Assembly: GCA_002712005.1 (NCBI GenBank)
Contig: PASP01000004.1
Coordinates: forward strand, 373,485 to 437,484
Length of the DNA stretch: 64,000 nt
From: Halobacteriovoraceae bacterium
Lineage (GTDB): Bacteria; Bdellovibrionota; Bacteriovoracia; Bacteriovoracales; Bacteriovoracaceae
Reading direction: 5' to 3'
Position numbers and translations under genes: made by a program. Positions 35,244 through 45,674 of the stretch are shown here, piece after piece; within the stretch, counting starts at the first letter, position 1, and each line of letters opens with the position of its first letter. The notes beneath the pieces are model-generated. The model was not told the origin of the DNA. It worked only from the letters and a program-made list of their open reading frames with translations, and ran no database searches.

Positions 35244-36716
35244 TTAGCCGACTTCTTCAGACGGTCTTACATTCTCAATTACCCCTTCTTTTACTAAGAG
35301 ATCATGGGTTTTCTGTGAACAAAATACATTGGGAATAAAGTTCATCGTATTTTTTAGACGAGAAATAACCGAGTTTTCTACTTCGGCCAAGAGCTTAACG
35401 TCACCGTTTTCGTAGCTAATCTTTACTGGATCCCTTTCTAACAAGACATTGGTTGCCTTATTTTTAGTGACAAGGCTCTTTGAAGATTGAACGAAAATAA
35501 TTTGTTTCTGAGGAAGATCAGCTATAAACCAATCATCCTTCTCTCCTTTTTTCTCAATCACCTTGCTGATTTCTTCAACTTTAGCTTCTGCCCTTTTCAT
35601 ATATTTACTTAGTTCTTCTGGATCATCTTGGCTGACCAAACGTTGCTTAAGTTCTTCACAACGAACATGGCGTGCCCCTTGAGCAAAGAGTAAGGTTTTC
35701 GCCATATTCTTCATTCCAAATTCTTTATCACGATCAAAAGCCCCACTATGGTACTGCTCATGAACAATGCTCATGAAGTAAGAATCTTGAAAGTTCCAAA
35801 ATTTTACAGGGTCTTTTTCAATTTGCTCTAAAAGGTCGCTATAACGACTCATCACCCCTTTTTCTAGGAAGTAGTAACAAAGCCCTTCAGCTATAGCATC
35901 ATACTTAGCTCCGCGAGAACTTCTAATAACTTGAGAGTACCAAGCAAATCGAGACTGTAGAAAGTCTTCTACACAGTGAAGGGCATTATGTTTGATCGTC
36001 AATATGTCTTGGCCACCAATTGTCTTTGGTTCAAAATGATGAAGAAGATAGTCTCTATCATAGCTTCCATATTTCAAGCCTGTGTAATGGGCATCACGAA
36101 GAAGATAGTCCATGCGATCACAGTCTATTTCAGAATGAAGAATCTGGTTGGCCATGATAGAAGGGTCTACTCCCTTAACGAGATCTGATATACGTTGAGG
36201 ATCATAGCCATATTTTTTTAAGATGTACGTTATCCCTCCAGGATAATCCGTATTCTTAATAATATAGGCTCCAAGATTTTCGTGGTCATCCTTGAGACCT
36301 TTCCCTCCGGCAATATGAGTCGTTTCCCCAAAACGGATATAGGCCATTTCAGTAGTATGGGAAAAGCAGAAAGTTCCTAAGTCATGCATCAGTGCACCTA
36401 GGCGAATCATTTGGTGCCAGTCTTTTTCCTTTGAATGGAAGTCGGAGTCCATGAGTTCTTGATCACTCACTGCGCGGTCACAAGATTTAATAATATGATG
36501 AGCATTATTCATCACGCCAATCGAGTGTCCAAAGCGCGAATGCTCTGCCCCTGGAAAAACATAGAAGGAATAACCCAGTTGTTTAATCCAGCGAAGTCTT
36601 TGATAAAAAGGAGAATGGATAATCTCTTTTTCCACAGGAGTCATATGTATAAACCCATAGATTGGGTCAAAAACAATATGCTGCTTCTTTTGAGGGGTAG
36701 TACTAAACATTTCCAT
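35244..36716 (-). CDS. HD-domain phosphohydrolase (COG1078, SAMHD1/dGTPase-like)
   Basis: The protein is 490 residues. The metal-binding HD signature is complete: GAEHSRFGHSIGVMNNA (first His), LGALMHDLGTFCFSHTTE (His-Asp) and HSEIDCDRMDYLLRDAHYTG (second Asp), preceded by YQRLRWIKQLG. This is the COG1078 family related to dNTP triphosphohydrolases and SAMHD1. The substrate, a dNTP or another phosphoester, cannot be told. ATG follows AAGGA at 6 bases. A terminator-like hairpin lies only about 26 bases upstream of its start. Confidence 0.9.
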   Translation of the reverse strand: MEMFSTTPQKKQHIVFDPIYGFIHMTPVEKEIIHSPFYQRLRWIKQLGYSFYVFPGAEHSRFGHSIGVMNNAHHIIKSCDRAVSDQELMDSDFHSKEKDWHQMIRLGALMHDLGTFCFSHTTEMAYIRFGETTHIAGGKGLKDDHENLGAYIIKNTDYPGGITYILKKYGYDPQRISDLVKGVDPSIMANQILHSEIDCDRMDYLLRDAHYTGLKYGSYDRDYLLHHFEPKTIGGQDILTIKHNALHCVEDFLQSRFAWYSQVIRSSRGAKYDAIAEGLCYYFLEKGVMSRYSDLLEQIEKDPVKFWNFQDSYFMSIVHEQYHSGAFDRDKEFGMKNMAKTLLFAQGARHVRCEELKQRLVSQDDPEELSKYMKRAEAKVEEISKVIEKKGEKDDWFIADLPQKQIIFVQSSKSLVTKNKATNVLLERDPVKISYENGDVKLLAEVENSVISRLKNTMNFIPNVFCSQKTHDLLVKEGVIENVRPSEEVG

Positions 36717-36741
36717 TTTCTATCCTTGAAAATATAAAAAA

Positions 36742-36760
36742 AGGGCCAATAGCTGGCCCT
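36742..36760 (-). terminator. Terminator or attenuator upstream of the HD gene
   Basis: AGGGCCA/TGGCCCT is a 7-bp stem with a 5-base loop, followed on the minus strand by seven T residues. It ends the small basic-protein gene. It also lies within the possible leader of the HD gene. Confidence 0.8.
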
Positions 36761-36766
36761 CTAACT

Positions 36767-36796
36767 ATTTTATGTTTTTTTTGTATTCTACTGCAA
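36767..36796 (-). promoter_or_regulatory. Possible promoter of the HD gene
   Basis: TTGCAG (36796-36791) and TAAAAT (36772-36767) are spaced by 18 bases and overlap the 3' end of the small gene. The predicted start is at the base of the terminator hairpin, which would then act as an attenuator in the HD leader. Confidence 0.35.
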
Positions 36797-37006
36797 CTTT
36801 TTACTTTTAGACTTACGAATTCTTGTTTTTTTCTTTGGCTTATTTAGCCTAGCATTAATAAATTCGAAGGCATGGTGTGCTTCTCTTCTTAGTCCATTTT
36901 CGTTAATGAAGCGATAGAGATCTTCAAGGTCCTTAGACTTTCTAAAAGTCTTTAAGCTCTTGACCCCTTCGGACTCCGTAGAGATTTCTTCTTGTATTTC
37001 TGACAT
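36788..37006 (-). CDS. Small basic-tailed protein of unknown function
   Basis: The protein is 72 residues. The N-terminal half is acidic (SEIQEEISTESEG), the middle helical (KDLEDLYRFINENGLRREAH, AFEFINARL), and the last 20 residues strongly basic (KPKKKTRIRKSKSKKLQ), suggesting RNA, DNA or ribosome contact. It has a very good start (GAGGAG 6-7 bases before ATG), its own promoter and its own terminator, so it is a real gene despite its size. Confidence 0.75.
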   Translation of the reverse strand: MSEIQEEISTESEGVKSLKTFRKSKDLEDLYRFINENGLRREAHHAFEFINARLNKPKKKTRIRKSKSKKLQ

Positions 37007-37108: not shown

Positions 37109-38659
37109 TTAAGCCTCTTGTTGATTACCAATCATTCCATAAGAATGAAGCTTGTTATAAAGAGTCTTAACTGTAATCCCTAGCATTTTAGCTGTTTTCG
37201 TCTTATTTCCACCAAGGTGCTCAAGAGTTAAACAGATATGACGTTTTTCAAGTTCATCTAAAGTCATTTCTGAGTAGCGTACAACATCCTCATCTTCAGT
37301 TTCCTCTTCAATTCTTGATTCAGTTACTGAGTCTGCAAGGTGATCACGCTCAACAATCATTCCATCAGAAAGGATATAAGCTCTCTCGATTACATTTTGA
37401 AGTTCACGAACATTTCCTGGCCAGTTGTATTCTTTAAGGGCCTTAACTACACCTGGTGATAGTGACTTCTGCTCTTCCGCCTTCTTATGAAGGTTAAGAA
37501 AATATGTTGCAAGAGTTTCAATATCTTCCACTCTTTCTCTAAGTGAAGGAATCTTTAGAACCATAGTATTTACATTGAAAAGAAGATCTTCTCTAAACTC
37601 ACCTTTGGCCACGAGCTCATTAAGGTCTTTCGTTGAAGAAACCATGAGTCTTACATCTGCTCTATAAGGCATATGTCCACCAACTCTGAAGGCCATCTTC
37701 TCATTGATAAAGTTATAAATCTTTGATTGTAAATGAAGTGTTAATCTATCGATATTGTTAAGAAATAGAGTTCCACCATTAGCAAGCTCAAGGAGACCAT
37801 TTCTTACTCTAACATCTTGGAAAGATCCATTTTCTTCACCGAAAATTTCTCTCTCTAGTGCAAGTTCGTCTAGAGCTGAACAATCAATACTTAAGAAAGA
37901 GTGCTCTGCTCTTTTTGATCTACAGTGAACACGACGAGCAACCATTTCTTTACCAACTCCACGCTCACCAATCATAAGAGCATTTACATCAGCAGCTGCT
38001 ACTTTATCAGCAAGGTGAATAAGTCTCTTCATTGTTTCAGACTTACCTGCAATTTCTTTTTCAATAATTTTAAAGCTTGTATTAGCGACAATTCCAGAAC
38101 CTTTCTCTTCGATTTCTTTTTCTTTTAGTTCAATTTGTCTTAATAGTGATTCGTTAAGATGTTTAGCTGCAAGATACATCTTCATATTTGCTAGTGGGTG
38201 ATGAAGTTCATTAAGAATTTCAAGTACTGCTGTCATATCATCACGTCCAAATTCTTTTTCAGACTCGATACACTGGAAGTGAATCGTAGCAATAACGATT
38301 CCCTCATGAAGAACTGGAATAGCAAGCTCAGCTCTTACCCCTTCTTCTTTTGCATCTGCAAATAGAGGATCTCTTTCTGTATTATTTGAGAAGTAAGGTC
38401 TTTTTGTACGAATTACGTGACCTGAAGGACCAACACCTTTTTCTAGAGTGATTCCTTTCTTAACTTGTTTTCCATTTTTTGAGATTACTTTAACTGAACC
38501 ATTTTCTTGTACAAGATAGATAAGAGTTTTATCTACTCCAATGAAGTCATGAAGAAGCTTTCCTAAGTGTGGGAAAAATACTGACTCATCGAGTGATGAA
38601 AGTAGGATTGAAGAAATTTCTTGAATCTTTGTTAAGTTTTTAGCCACTGAATCCATCAT
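37109..38659 (-). CDS. GAF-AAA+-Fis protein, NtrC-type activator with lost Walker B and GAFTGA motifs
   Basis: The protein is 516 residues from the ATG at 38657-38659, 8 bases after AGGAG; the frame runs 15 residues further back without a site. Residues 25-160 are a GAF domain (GVGPSGHVIRTKRPYFSNNT), 200-440 the AAA+ domain and 470-516 a Fis-type helix-turn-helix (NKTKTAKMLGITVKTLYNKL). Walker A is intact (GERGVGKE, 231-238). The GAFTGA sigma-54 contact loop is GSFQDV (278-283), the Walker B DE is NN (301-302), and the second arginine-finger position is Asn. It should bind DNA but probably cannot activate sigma-54. It follows tolB and has its own promoter. Confidence 0.88.
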   Translation of the reverse strand: MMDSVAKNLTKIQEISSILLSSLDESVFFPHLGKLLHDFIGVDKTLIYLVQENGSVKVISKNGKQVKKGITLEKGVGPSGHVIRTKRPYFSNNTERDPLFADAKEEGVRAELAIPVLHEGIVIATIHFQCIESEKEFGRDDMTAVLEILNELHHPLANMKMYLAAKHLNESLLRQIELKEKEIEEKGSGIVANTSFKIIEKEIAGKSETMKRLIHLADKVAAADVNALMIGERGVGKEMVARRVHCRSKRAEHSFLSIDCSALDELALEREIFGEENGSFQDVRVRNGLLELANGGTLFLNNIDRLTLHLQSKIYNFINEKMAFRVGGHMPYRADVRLMVSSTKDLNELVAKGEFREDLLFNVNTMVLKIPSLRERVEDIETLATYFLNLHKKAEEQKSLSPGVVKALKEYNWPGNVRELQNVIERAYILSDGMIVERDHLADSVTESRIEEETEDEDVVRYSEMTLDELEKRHICLTLEHLGGNKTKTAKMLGITVKTLYNKLHSYGMIGNQQEA

Positions 38660-38724
38660 CTGCTTATCTCCTAGACATATATAACAATTAGTTTTCAACT
38701 TCAACGCTATGCGTAACTAGGAAA

Positions 38725-38753
38725 ATAATACACCGCGTCTGAATATTTTACAA
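38725..38753 (-). promoter_or_regulatory. Promoter of the NtrC-type gene
   Basis: TTGTAA (38753-38748) and TATTAT (38730-38725) are spaced by 17 bases. A second, later candidate (TTGAAG 38704-38699 with TATATG 38681-38676) would start inside the ribosome site and is less likely. Confidence 0.5.
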
Positions 38754-38801: not shown

Positions 38802-40148
38802 CTAGTACTTAGACCATCTAGGAGTTGAACAGTTTCCGAAATTTTCGGTGACCTGCCCTAAAATCTCCCCTTCACGGGTCATAATGTATATATTTTGAAC
38901 GGCCTTACTTTGGGAGAGGACTCTCTGGCTGCTAAAAGCGATAAACTGTCCATCATTTGAATAGGTAGGGTCTTCATTTGAGCCAAAATCCTTCGTTAAA
39001 CGGTAGAGATTACGTCCATCTTGGTCGATTCTGAAAATATCAAATTTCCCATCCATCCAAGAGGCAAAGGCCACTTCTAGTCCGTCAGGTGAAAAGCGTG
39101 GAGTTGCGTTATAGTCCCCTACAAAGCCTCTACGCTTTACATCCTTCTCTTCAGCCCTTGGATCTGCAATGTAGATCATGGGCTTTTTAGAGCCTGATCG
39201 CCCGGAAAGAAAGACCATTCGAGTCCCTTCACTATTAAAGCTAGGATCAACATCAGGGGCAAAGTGTCTAGTTATTCGACGAGTTTTTCCAGTATTCAGA
39301 CTAAGGGCATAAATCTCAGCATTTCCTTCATGACTCATCGTTAGAGCGATATGTTCTCCATCAGGCATGAAAACAGCACCCGAATTGATCCCTTTTCGAG
39401 ATGAAACAACTCTAGAATTTCTTGTCTCTAAATCCATCACATAGAGATTCACATTTCGATTCTTATTTCTATTATTCTTTATCAAACTATAAAGAACCTT
39501 TTTCCCATCAAAGCTTAGGGCCGGAGAAATGACTGTCCCTTGATGTCTCGTAAGTTGAATAGGATTTCTTCCATCAAAATCCATCATATAAAGTTCTTTA
39601 ACCTGCTTGCTTCTTGTTGTATTTCGATCAGAGACAAAAATAATTTTTGAATTGAAAATGGAGTCCGTCTTTTTAATTGCTTTGAAAATTCTATCGGTTA
39701 ATTGATGCCCCTTCTCTCTTAAGTTATTAGCAGAAAAAGTATCTCTAACCATGGTCATTTTCTCTTCTGTAGCAGCATCGTATAGAGTCCCCTCTACAGT
39801 AACTTGTCCACCTGGAGCCAATTCGTAATTGGAGAGAATAAGATATCTAAGATTCTTTTTCTTTAATTGCGAAAAGTCTTTATCTTTTGCAGCAGAAGAA
39901 TATTCACTTGCTTTCATCACATCAAAATACTGCTTATAAAAGCTAAAATCATTTTGAAAAAGAGACTGCATTTCATTGATTATTTTCTTTTGAGTAGAAT
40001 TGGCATTACTAGGAATATTATGGGGAACAAAAACCATTTTATCCTTTTCAACCTCGGCCTCTCCGACAGCAACGATAGTTAAACCTTCGTCAGCAAAAGA
40101 AAAGGGGTTAAAAGAAATTAACGTGAGTAGAATTAACCATAATTTCAT
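38802..40148 (-). CDS. tolB: Tol-Pal system periplasmic protein TolB
   Basis: The protein is 448 residues with a signal peptide (KLWLILLTLISFNPFSFA). An N-terminal alpha/beta domain (about 25-165) is followed by a six-bladed propeller of WD40-like PD40 repeats: ISPALSFDGKKVLYS, GAVFMPDGEHIALT, VDPSFNSEGTRMVFLS, TPRFSPDGLEVAFAS, EDPTYSNDGQFIAFSS and STPRWSKY. TolB bridges TolA and Pal during outer-membrane constriction. It is last in tolQRAB; no pal gene follows, unlike the common order. Confidence 0.95.
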   Translation of the reverse strand: MKLWLILLTLISFNPFSFADEGLTIVAVGEAEVEKDKMVFVPHNIPSNANSTQKKIINEMQSLFQNDFSFYKQYFDVMKASEYSSAAKDKDFSQLKKKNLRYLILSNYELAPGGQVTVEGTLYDAATEEKMTMVRDTFSANNLREKGHQLTDRIFKAIKKTDSIFNSKIIFVSDRNTTRSKQVKELYMMDFDGRNPIQLTRHQGTVISPALSFDGKKVLYSLIKNNRNKNRNVNLYVMDLETRNSRVVSSRKGINSGAVFMPDGEHIALTMSHEGNAEIYALSLNTGKTRRITRHFAPDVDPSFNSEGTRMVFLSGRSGSKKPMIYIADPRAEEKDVKRRGFVGDYNATPRFSPDGLEVAFASWMDGKFDIFRIDQDGRNLYRLTKDFGSNEDPTYSNDGQFIAFSSQRVLSQSKAVQNIYIMTREGEILGQVTENFGNCSTPRWSKY

Positions 40149-42267: not shown

Positions 42268-43107
42268 TTATAGTGGAATTTTTTTGAATCTTTTCGAATT
42301 AAAGTAGATCAAAGTCAGGACAGAGAAGACCCCTATCTCTAATCCGCCAATTGATTTTTCGAAAATAAAGGGCGAATAAAGTCCCTTCCATAGTGGACCG
42401 AGTCCAAAAAGAGCACATAGTGGTGCAATCATTAGAAGAATCAATAAAAAAGAGTGAAGCCAGACGTAACCACCTCTTAGCCTCAAGCAATAGAAAACAA
42501 GAATAAAGAAGAATACAATCTCTAGCGACCAGTTTAGACCGTAGAAATAAGTCCATTTATTAAATAAAAAGGCCATGAGAGAAAAGAGCACAATTTCAAT
42601 GTACCAATTTTTCCTCTTTAAAGGGAGTTCATCATTAAGAGTAAGAAGAAGAAGTCCATCAAGACCAAAGAAGAGACATACTCCAATGTAGTTTAAGAGC
42701 ACCGATGAAAGCTCCCATTCGAATTCCTCCCTCCATACGGGCCTTCCCAATAGGGCCATGCCCAATAAGAAGATCGAAATGGCGACATAAATCTCTGTTC
42801 TAAAGATACCCTTCTTATATTGAAGAAGATGAATTAAAGGCTTTCTCTCAAAAGACAGAATTCCTGTAAAACGAGAGATCACGAAAAAGGCGGTTGATTT
42901 TGAGAATATGAGTATCCACCACGATTGAAAGAAGATCCAATCTTGAATATCGGCCAATCGATGATCCAGTAAGAAATGAAAGAAAGCTATAACAGAGAGA
43001 ACAATAAGATAAATTAAGGCGTGAAAAAGATAATAGCCTGTAAAATAGTAGAGATGTTTCGAAAAGTTAGGCTCCACATAGGGAAGGCCAGGTAATTTAT
43101 CTTTCAA
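42268..43107 (-). CDS. Multi-spanning membrane protein of unknown function
   Basis: The protein is 279 residues with about eight or nine hydrophobic helices and many aromatic residues. It begins with TTG at 43107, 6 bases after GGGAAG. No transporter or enzyme motif is visible. It is the last gene of the sppA-lapB cluster, 19 bases after the 303-residue exported protein, so it may join it in an envelope function. Confidence 0.75.
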   Translation of the reverse strand: MKDKLPGLPYVEPNFSKHLYYFTGYYLFHALIYLIVLSVIAFFHFLLDHRLADIQDWIFFQSWWILIFSKSTAFFVISRFTGILSFERKPLIHLLQYKKGIFRTEIYVAISIFLLGMALLGRPVWREEFEWELSSVLLNYIGVCLFFGLDGLLLLTLNDELPLKRKNWYIEIVLFSLMAFLFNKWTYFYGLNWSLEIVFFFILVFYCLRLRGGYVWLHSFLLILLMIAPLCALFGLGPLWKGLYSPFIFEKSIGGLEIGVFSVLTLIYFNSKRFKKIPL

Positions 43108-43126
43108 TAATATCTTCCCTCGAAAT

Positions 43127-44038
43127 TTAGAGAACCTTTTTATTCTGAGGCTTAAGCCAGTTCTTCTGTAATTCAGGGCTAGGATAAATCTTTAGATACT
43201 TTTGGTAAAGAATATTTGATTTAACGAGATTATCAATTTTGCCAAGCATAAGATAATAACCATTCCACCATTTTATATTATTCTTCAGCAACTTATTCAT
43301 TCTCGTCGTGACGCTATACTGTTGCTGGAAGTTGAAGCCTTTATCAAAGATTAATTCATCATACTTCTCTGAAATCTTTTCGAGCAGAGATTTATCCCAT
43401 TTCTTTTCATAGGAATTACTGCCCAAAAATGAGTCTAGCCCTTTTACGCTTGCATAATCCTTAAAGTAGCCTTTTTGAAGTCGCACATAGTCTTCTAGTA
43501 AAAGAAGCGAAATTTCGAGTTTACTTAGATCAAGAGTCCTTATAAAAGGAACGCTAACCAAGAAAATAATCTCATTAGCGTTACTTGGTAAAGCAAAGTG
43601 AGTGACATCAGGAGTATTAACCAACAAAATTTTAAACTTTAGTTCATAGATTCCAAGTTTTTCCAAAAACTCTTTGAAGGAATCCTCTAGACCATATTCT
43701 GGTTTTTTAAAATTCCATTTCAAAACAGTTGCATTTTTAACAATCCAATATTCGGAAAAGAAACTCCAAAAGTCTTCCTTGCTTGGAAGATCATAGAGTG
43801 CCACTTTTTTTCGATTCAAGGCCTTCTTTTCTTTGATAATTTTATTCTTCTTTGTTTCGGCTTCTTTGCCCAGTCGGTCCTTTTCTAGCACTTGCTTAAT
43901 GCGATCAAATTCGATGGGCTCTACTGTTATATTAACGGCATCATCTTTAGCTTTTTCCTGAGCATATGTAGGAGCTAAGATGGAAGCGAATAGGAGACTT
44001 TTTAAAAATATGTCCAGTCTAAAGTATTTATTCATCAT
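43127..44038 (-). CDS. Exported protein of unknown function
   Basis: The protein is 303 residues with a signal peptide ending near residue 26 (ILAPTYAQE). A charged linker (RLGKEAETKKNKIIKEKKAL, about 55-75) leads to a mostly helical domain rich in aromatic and lysine residues. No known motif is seen. It overlaps the SH3-like gene by 4 bases (ATGA), so the two are translated together. Confidence 0.75.
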   Translation of the reverse strand: MMNKYFRLDIFLKSLLFASILAPTYAQEKAKDDAVNITVEPIEFDRIKQVLEKDRLGKEAETKKNKIIKEKKALNRKKVALYDLPSKEDFWSFFSEYWIVKNATVLKWNFKKPEYGLEDSFKEFLEKLGIYELKFKILLVNTPDVTHFALPSNANEIIFLVSVPFIRTLDLSKLEISLLLLEDYVRLQKGYFKDYASVKGLDSFLGSNSYEKKWDKSLLEKISEKYDELIFDKGFNFQQQYSVTTRMNKLLKNNIKWWNGYYLMLGKIDNLVKSNILYQKYLKIYPSPELQKNWLKPQNKKVL

Positions 44039-44439
44039 TGAACCTTTGACTCCCCTTGAACATATTGATCATTGAGTTTTCCCCAATAATACATTTCAGA
44101 GATCGATAGATTTAATGAGTTAAAAAACTTGGGATATTTATCCGAAATACATTTCTCTTTCTTATTGGATAAGTAAATTCGATCGATATATCCAAGATAA
44201 GGACCCACCTTAACCTTGAAGTAATTACCCGATAAAATCTCATTACCCTTTTCTTTAACGATCTTTACAGGATGGCCACATTCAATCGTAGATAGCGATT
44301 GAGAATAACGAGAAGGATTCTTGTGAACATGACCAAAGAGGTGATTAAAATAAACCACTCTTGATATCTCTTCTTTTGCCTCTACTCTTGAAAAGAATAT
44401 AAAAGACATTATGAATAGAATTTTCGAATATTTAATCAT
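44035..44439 (-). CDS. Exported SH3-like protein
   Basis: The protein is about 134 residues from the ATG at 44437-44439; the frame runs further into the lapB 3' end but lacks a site. A signal peptide (KILFIMSFIFFSRVEA) is followed by a domain of bacterial SH3 kind: IECGHPVKIVKEKGNEI, NYFKVKVGPYLGYIDRIYLS. Such domains bind cell-wall peptides. The C-terminal 30 residues are variable. It lies 5 bases after the lapB stop. Confidence 0.7.
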   Translation of the reverse strand: MIKYSKILFIMSFIFFSRVEAKEEISRVVYFNHLFGHVHKNPSRYSQSLSTIECGHPVKIVKEKGNEILSGNYFKVKVGPYLGYIDRIYLSNKKEKCISDKYPKFFNSLNLSISEMYYWGKLNDQYVQGESKVQ

Positions 44440-44444
44440 CTCAA

Positions 44445-45674
44445 TTAAACCTTCCAACGGAATTGAATCGTTTCCCATTCATGGCACTGAGGACAACGCC
44501 AAAAGATTTCATCCGAATTATATCCACAGTTTTCGCAATAATGTTTTGTTAATGACTGGTGGAGATTCTCAAGAAGGGCATCAACTTGATCGACGACTTC
44601 TTCTCTCTTTCCCAATTGGATTAAGATTTTAATATATTCTGTTTTTACAACATCAGAAGCATTGGGATGAGACTCCATATAAGCTTTTAATACAGAATAG
44701 GCCTGTTCCATTTTTCCAAGTTGCTTGAGAAGTCGTACTTTAGTCAGTACAACAGAGGGTGACTCATCCAAATCGTGATCATTCATCTCTAAAAAGAACT
44801 CTTTGAGAAGTTCTAATCTTTGCTGATAAGATTCTTTGGTTCCTTCGTCCCCTTTAAAGCCCTCACTAAGTGATTCAAAAATAAACGAAGTATACATTGG
44901 ATGCTCTTTCAGCAATTCGATCATTAGATCCTTTGCTTGATCCATATTTCCCATAGTGAGATAGAGCCTCAGCCTTAAAATCTTTGCCGATACAGAAGGA
45001 GCAAATCGGAAGGCATCTTCTAAATCTTCATTACATTGGGAAAAGTCACCTTTTTCAAATAATGCCTTAGCCTTTTGAACTAAGATATGGGAGATCGTTT
45101 CGGCTTGATTCTCATGGCCAACTTTAGAGAGCATGATGCGGTAATTATAAGCTTGGTCCCAATTTTCAATATCTTCAAAAATTCGACACAGAGATTGAAT
45201 CACTTCATATTGATCCCTATTAATGCGTAGAACATCTTTATAGGTATCGATGGCCTTGTCGACAAAGCCTCCCTTATCGAAATCAATCGCCAACTCTTTT
45301 AAAGAACGTAAACGATCAGCTTCACTTATATTTTCTCTAGCGATAAGGCTGCGATGAATTGAAATGGCCTTATCAATTTCCCCATTGCTTCTAAAAAGTC
45401 CCCCTAACGCAAAATACGTATCAATAGTTTCTCTATTAATATCTACGGCATTAAGAAACTCTTTAATGGCCAAGTCCTTATTACCTGAGATGAGGTACTG
45501 AGTTGCATTCAAAAAGACTTTCGATTGAGCTTCAAATATAGAATTTCTATATTTTTTAGAAAGCTTAACTCCTGTGTCTTTTTCGGAGAGGTAATGATAA
45601 ATCAATACGAGGGTAAGCCCAACGGCTACCGTGGCCAACAAGTGATCCTGTAACCATGCTAAATATACTTCCAA
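44445..45674 (-). CDS. lapB: LapB/YciM-like TPR protein
   Basis: The protein is 409 residues. An N-terminal helix (LLATVAVGLTLVLIYHYL) anchors it in the inner membrane, about eight TPR motifs follow, and the C-terminus is a rubredoxin-like metal site (YCENCGYNSDEIFWRCPQCHEW, CxxC twice). This architecture matches LapB, which in E. coli controls LpxC stability and LPS synthesis. The start is TTG at 45674 behind AAGGAG. It is 36 bases after sppA. Confidence 0.88.
   Translation of the reverse strand: MEVYLAWLQDHLLATVAVGLTLVLIYHYLSEKDTGVKLSKKYRNSIFEAQSKVFLNATQYLISGNKDLAIKEFLNAVDINRETIDTYFALGGLFRSNGEIDKAISIHRSLIARENISEADRLRSLKELAIDFDKGGFVDKAIDTYKDVLRINRDQYEVIQSLCRIFEDIENWDQAYNYRIMLSKVGHENQAETISHILVQKAKALFEKGDFSQCNEDLEDAFRFAPSVSAKILRLRLYLTMGNMDQAKDLMIELLKEHPMYTSFIFESLSEGFKGDEGTKESYQQRLELLKEFFLEMNDHDLDESPSVVLTKVRLLKQLGKMEQAYSVLKAYMESHPNASDVVKTEYIKILIQLGKREEVVDQVDALLENLHQSLTKHYCENCGYNSDEIFWRCPQCHEWETIQFRWKV

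Follow-up and report, generated by a model that had tools for sequence, protein, structure and literature searches.

The window, a 64,000-nucleotide stretch of the genome of a Halobacteriovoraceae bacterium, carries on its reverse strand a gene for a GAF/AAA+/Fis-type regulator, which is followed by a gene for a small basic protein and lies between tolB and an HD-domain gene (Table 1). The mechanical open reading frame of the regulator begins at a TTG at 38704, and we placed the start at the ATG at 38659, which has AGGAG upstream. Pfam searches identified a GAF domain, the sigma-54 activator domain Sigma54_activat (PF00158; 157.9 bits, cut-off 20.2), AAA_lid_14, and a C-terminal Fis-type helix-turn-helix (HTH) domain (HTH_8; 45.3 bits). 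The best NCBIfam match is nifA (TIGR01817), at 273.1 bits against an equivalog cut-off of 528.85, and the protein is not assigned to NifA. An annotation drawn from domains alone would name it a sigma-54 activator.

Table 1. Features of the regulator locus, in window coordinates and in the order of transcription
Feature	Position	Strand	Basis
tolB, upstream neighbour of the regulator	38802..40148	-	ORFs, Pfam, family gene order
Sigma-70-like promoter, TTGTAA-17-TATTAT	38725..38753	-	conserved across the family
Candidate dyad operator TTACGCATAGCGTTG, 8 nt downstream of the −10 hexamer	38702..38716	-	family comparison
Regulator CDS, GAF / AAA+ (Sigma54_activat) / Fis-HTH, 516 aa	37109..38659	-	ORF, Pfam, PDB alignment, 114 family orthologues aligned
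GAF domain, about residues 18–150	38210..38608	-	Pfam GAF_2/GAF; AlphaFold2 model
Walker A GERGVGKE, kept	37946..37969	-	K in 112/114 family rows
GSFQDV for GAFTGA, residues 278–283	37811..37828	-	PDB and family alignment; model
NN for the Walker B acids (LDE to LNN), residues 301–302	37754..37759	-	PDB and family alignment
Asn362 at the second arginine-finger position (YRLN to FNVN)	37574..37576	-	PDB and family alignment
Fis-type HTH, residues 466–509, most conserved part	37133..37264	-	Pfam; family alignment
Conserved basic small protein, 72 aa, next gene 3' of the regulator	36788..37006	-	114/114 family genomes
Terminator-like hairpin, 3' of the small ORF and 5' of the HD-domain gene	36740..36762	-	consensus scan: 3 in region, 5.9 expected in shuffles
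HD-domain gene, downstream neighbour	35244..36716	-	family gene order, Pfam

The original prediction held that the GAFTGA loop, the Walker B acidic pair, and one arginine finger had been replaced, and that Walker A, the fold, and the HTH were kept. Alignment to ZraR, NifA, and NtrC1 from the PDB bore out both statements; it runs through the motifs with no insertion, and the residues had not been misread. Two of the features typical of sigma-54 activators, the GAFTGA loop and the Walker B acids, are absent, and of the two arginine fingers the first (R356) is kept and the second is N362. The sensor II motif WPGNVREL and the HTH are intact in the same alignment. AlphaFold2 produced a confident model (mean pLDDT 86.8), which in Foldseek matched AAA-only chains of FleQ, NtrC1, FlrC, and PspF (TMt 0.83–0.91), and the L1-loop region is modelled as two strands (274–279 and 282–287). 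The source genome encodes rpoN, which was found in 56 of the 59 genomes searched, and GAFTGA is retained in five of the eight proteins that score above 80 bits for PF00158 in this genome; therefore, the loss is specific to this gene and does not reflect a genome-wide loss of sigma-54. Judged from sequence, sigma-54 activation by the regulator has very likely been lost, and the proposal that it is a GAF-containing DNA-binding regulator that cannot act as a normal sigma-54 activator is supported. Elsewhere in the source genome, a second degenerate PF00158 protein of about 318 aa, also without GAFTGA, is encoded directly upstream of flgB-like flagellar genes (L224, G000:C16, about 177588–178034), and an HTH search returned frames of about 330 aa resembling it in many family genomes.

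The regulator was matched at 1e-62 or better in 125 of the 129 genomes of the family Bacteriovoracaceae, and the family alignment comprised 114 rows (113 fetched sequences and the window). Eleven matched genomes lie outside the alignment (G004, G070, G090, G116, G117, G126, G127, G128, G130, G132, and G145); in G004, the C-terminal half of the regulator was seen as locus L018. The four genomes with no match at this threshold are also outside it, and one of them, G025, carries a very divergent copy in the order tolB, regulator, small ORF, ftsE. Within the alignment, GAFTGA is absent from 112 of 114 orthologues: 53 of them have other residues in its place, and in the remaining 59 the loop is shortened or missing. 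The two exceptions, G034 and G097, have GAFTGA or GSFTGA and retain everything, and the seven outgroup rows, which represent other families in the phylum, all have a canonical sigma-54 loop. The congeners of the source genome share both NN and a degenerate loop, and the state of the window protein is not due to chance. The lysine of Walker A persists almost throughout (Table 1). Walker B reads DE in three rows, with its first acid D in 36 and its second E in 10; the first arginine finger is R in 78 of the 114 rows and the second in 46, compared with 7/7 for the second in the outgroups, and one large clade of the family retains both the Walker B D and the second finger. Because nearly all rows lack the loop and about a third keep the first acid, the trait common to the family is the loss of the sigma-54 loop, whereas the hydrolysis residues have been lost in many rows but not in all. 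The Walker B loss noted at the outset thus stands for the window protein but does not extend to the whole family.

To place these losses, a family tree was built without the trait columns; it contains long branches. The 112 degenerate rows group to the exclusion of the canonical G034 and G097 (SH-aLRT 89, on a branch that is not starred), and the starred branches force at least two changes. This placement suggests, with moderate tree support, a single origin of the loop loss followed by separate deletions. The family alignment shows descent from a bacterial enhancer-binding protein (bEBP) with L1/GAFTGA lost, and it is fairly likely that in most family members this protein was uncoupled from sigma-54 while its chromosomal place stayed unchanged.

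Upstream of the regulator, a block of the form CTTGTAAA - TTCAGACGCA.TGTATTAT is conserved across the family, and a candidate dyad operator with the consensus TAAYGCnnnGCRTTA lies at the expected start site of the sigma-70-like promoter. The dyad was scored in 111 of the 114 genomes, no promoter being anchored in the other three. A score of at least 9/12 was reached in 87 of the 111, compared with about 4.8 expected from shuffles and 4/109 in a control stretch; the consensus had been drawn by eye from the very sequences to which it was then applied, which accounts for part of this excess. More telling than the score excess is the fixed position, most dyads beginning 7–10 nt after the −10 hexamer. 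In 24 of the 111 genomes the score is 8 or less; the dyad of the canonical G034 scores 8/12, which is at the shuffle level, and no dyad above that level was found upstream of the seven canonical outgroup genes. At the Y/R position, variation in one half-site is independent of that in the other (Fisher p 0.49), which is more in keeping with a pair of protein-binding half-sites than with an RNA stem; an RNA stem-loop was rejected on this ground and because C-A pairs outnumber T-G pairs, 31 to 13. An operator in this position most simply suggests autorepression of the regulator. The original prediction had offered a repressor or a decoy; the first fits a candidate dyad over the gene's own start site, but a decoy occupying the sites of a paralogue is not supported, since the next best HTH in the source genome is only 43% identical.

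We then considered whether the dyad marks further targets. In the source genome it is not enriched (7 occurrences versus 18 for a control pattern), and so a regulon is not visible; its exact variant, searched for in 20 genomes, is likewise not enriched in the 13 that belong to the family. Seventeen loci examined around exact-variant sites have no gene in common, and 12 of the sites lie inside ORFs, as if they occurred by chance. No convincing second copy of either the upstream block CCGAGCATTTTAGTCTTGTAAA or the −10 block was found in the source genome, and a search of the window for a sigma-54 promoter gave only chance-level matches. Two observations were made alongside these searches: the source genome contains TTAACACGCAGTGTAATAT (L215, G000:C15:251913-251931), a match to the conserved −10 block with three mismatches, and G040, a genome of another family, has two intergenic palindromes, TAACGCATTGCGTTA / TAACGCATTGCGTAA, at L198 and L199 (C5 and C130).

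The dyad and the conserved promoter could belong to another regulator, with the GAF protein acting at other sites. This would accord with a dyad that is nearly unique to the regulator promoter in the source genome and with a near-invariant HTH, which could imply more targets. Against it, the dyad stands directly before the regulator gene family-wide, and its decay is weakly linked to divergence of the HTH, genomes with more HTH changes having weaker dyads (rho −0.30, n = 111, relatedness not corrected). We regard this reading as possible, although autorepression through the dyad is the one we prefer.

The gene order around the regulator is well kept: tolB lies upstream in 107 of 113 genomes and the HD-domain gene downstream in 101 of 113, with contig ends accounting for part of the missing cases, and the order tolQRAB, regulator, HD, ftsE, ftsX, envC, ctp recurs over loci of up to 13.5 kb. 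In G097 the downstream order is kept, and no tol genes were seen upstream of the regulator. Between tolQ and a TPR/LapB-like gene (window 42268-44478, reverse strand), genes of 279, 303, and 147 aa also occur in an order conserved across much of the family, two of them without a Pfam match. The adjacency to tolB from which the Tol system had been proposed as a target is therefore real and conserved, but the proposal itself found no direct support: tolB precedes the regulator in the same orientation, the genes served by the conserved promoter would be the regulator and the small ORF, and none of the six dyad matches in the window (at most two mismatches) falls at a tol gene's own promoter. In a broader form, the regulator would control the adjoining envelope and division genes (tolQRAB upstream and ftsEX-envC downstream) at sigma-70 promoters, with autoregulation secondary. 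The gene order, kept over much of the family, speaks in its favor, but the promoters of the fts genes are likewise devoid of dyad matches within two mismatches, and the terminator-like hairpin separates the small ORF from the HD-domain gene; we consider such control rather unlikely.

To determine how selection acts on the gene, we compared close pairs of orthologues. dN was well below dS in 10 of 10 pairs over the whole gene (dN 0.004–0.056, dS 0.17–2.44), and likewise in all ten within the AAA domain, and dN/dS was low in each domain; as read from these alignments, purifying selection on the gene is strong. Mean pairwise identity in the degenerate rows versus the canonical outgroups (n = 7) was 0.41 versus 0.70 for the AAA core, 0.41 versus 0.26 for GAF, and 0.78 versus 0.68 for the HTH, in which 16 recognition-region residues are identical in 95 of 111 family genomes. 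From this comparison, constraint on the AAA core, once exceptional, has fallen to that of the GAF domain, and the HTH is the most conserved part. The pattern bears on the idea that the regulator works by protein contact, its non-hydrolysing subunits joining canonical bEBP hexamers and poisoning or tuning them as a dominant-negative sigma-54 modulator. The AAA fold and Walker A are kept, and the genome has rpoN and at least five GAFTGA-bearing bEBPs; nevertheless, the strongest constraint falls on the recognition helix rather than on the AAA interface, and the arginine fingers and Walker B differ between genomes, which makes hexamer mixing improbable. That the AAA domain is simply decaying on a dispensable gene, as the many different ways in which the loop, Walker B, and fingers have degenerated might imply, is hardly credible given long open frames in 114 genomes and the low dN/dS values, which together rule out a pseudogene.

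The small gene that follows the regulator in the family also follows it in two outgroups, G050 and G057. Its product has the pattern FR...DiENFYRfiheNgLRrEA and a lysine-rich end, and the model has a helical core (helices 18–22, 25–37, and 40–54); neither a Pfam family nor a PDB fold match was found for it. Relatives that share the conserved helical core, with lysine- or lysine/alanine-rich tails, some of them long, and with no Pfam model are scattered through the phylum (L230, L231, L233, L236, and L237); those in some outgroups stand away from the regulator, and in G043 one lies two frames from a tolB-like gene.

Collectively, these comparisons favor the view that a former sigma-54 activator has become a sigma-70-type, probably autorepressing DNA-binding regulator; it would repress its own operon and probably use ATP binding for assembly. 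In this mechanism, the GAF domain would sense a signal, and the AAA+ part, its Walker A being preserved, would still bind ATP and serve chiefly to set the oligomeric state. Because its Walker B reads NN, the window protein is expected to show little or no ATP hydrolysis. The Fis-type HTH would bind TAAYGCnnnGCRTTA at the regulator's own sigma-70 promoter and block RNA polymerase, resulting in autorepression of the regulator together with the small protein, and the regulator may also act at a few other promoters. Studies of better-known proteins bear on single steps. In the accessible portion of PMC4132715, PspF E108Q is described as assembling into hexamers even when nucleotide is absent, and the PspF loop substitution T86A as blocking engagement. 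The part of PMC10274813 available to us reports that R. capsulatus NtrC needs ATP binding but not hydrolysis, whereas Caulobacter NtrC was reported to require its Walker B residue; therefore, decoupling from sigma-54 does not by itself make hydrolysis dispensable. A more speculative and quite improbable view is that the regulator and the small basic protein form a two-gene module in which an ATP-bound, non-hydrolysing oligomer and its basic partner do not act as a simple promoter switch but assemble into a complex that organises DNA at the Tol/FtsEX envelope-division locus.

Decoupled bEBPs are an already known kind, represented by TyrR, HupR, VpsR, and Caulobacter NtrC. The NtrC proteins of Caulobacter and R. 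capsulatus are likewise of the NtrC AAA+/HTH type with the L1 GAFTGA loop deleted and are reported at sigma-70 promoters, but they carry a receiver domain and are partnered by a kinase (PMC10274813, accessible text). The regulator described here instead has a GAF domain, has also lost Walker B in many members, and is followed by a gene for a small basic protein. VpsR of V. cholerae also lacks GAFTGA, regulates sigma-70 promoters, and is reported to be ATP-independent (PMC10274813 and PMC3162934, accessible text), and its structure (PDB 7v2b) was among the Foldseek matches of our model; it differs in binding c-di-GMP and in being an activator (PMC10714721, accessible text), neither of which is indicated for the regulator. 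TyrR and DhaR of E. coli and HupR of R. capsulatus are EBP homologues that no longer interact with sigma-54 and are sigma-70 dependent (PMC3162934, accessible text). Their regulons are different, and for the present regulator intact as well as decoupled positional orthologues occur within one family. The sensor domains of TyrR, DhaR, and HupR also differ from that of the regulator. NifA/NorR-type GAF bEBPs share the GAF-AAA-HTH_8 domain order, but the regulator lacks the sigma-54 loop and scores under the TIGR01817 cut-off. We found no published account of this lineage, its in-place series, the candidate operator, or the small neighbour among the Bdellovibrio, Halobacteriovorax, and Bacteriovorax papers listed, most subscription journals being outside that coverage.

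The host family includes predators. For this family, the analysis puts forward a candidate operator and draws attention to an uncharacterised protein encoded next to the regulator. At one chromosomal place, it also presents a natural series that runs from an intact activator (G034 and G097) to forms with the loop substituted or deleted, Walker B changed, and fingers lost, all under continuous selection. The conversion of an AAA+ remodeller into a DNA-binding switch, the order of the losses, and the remaining use of the ATP site are therefore open to test.
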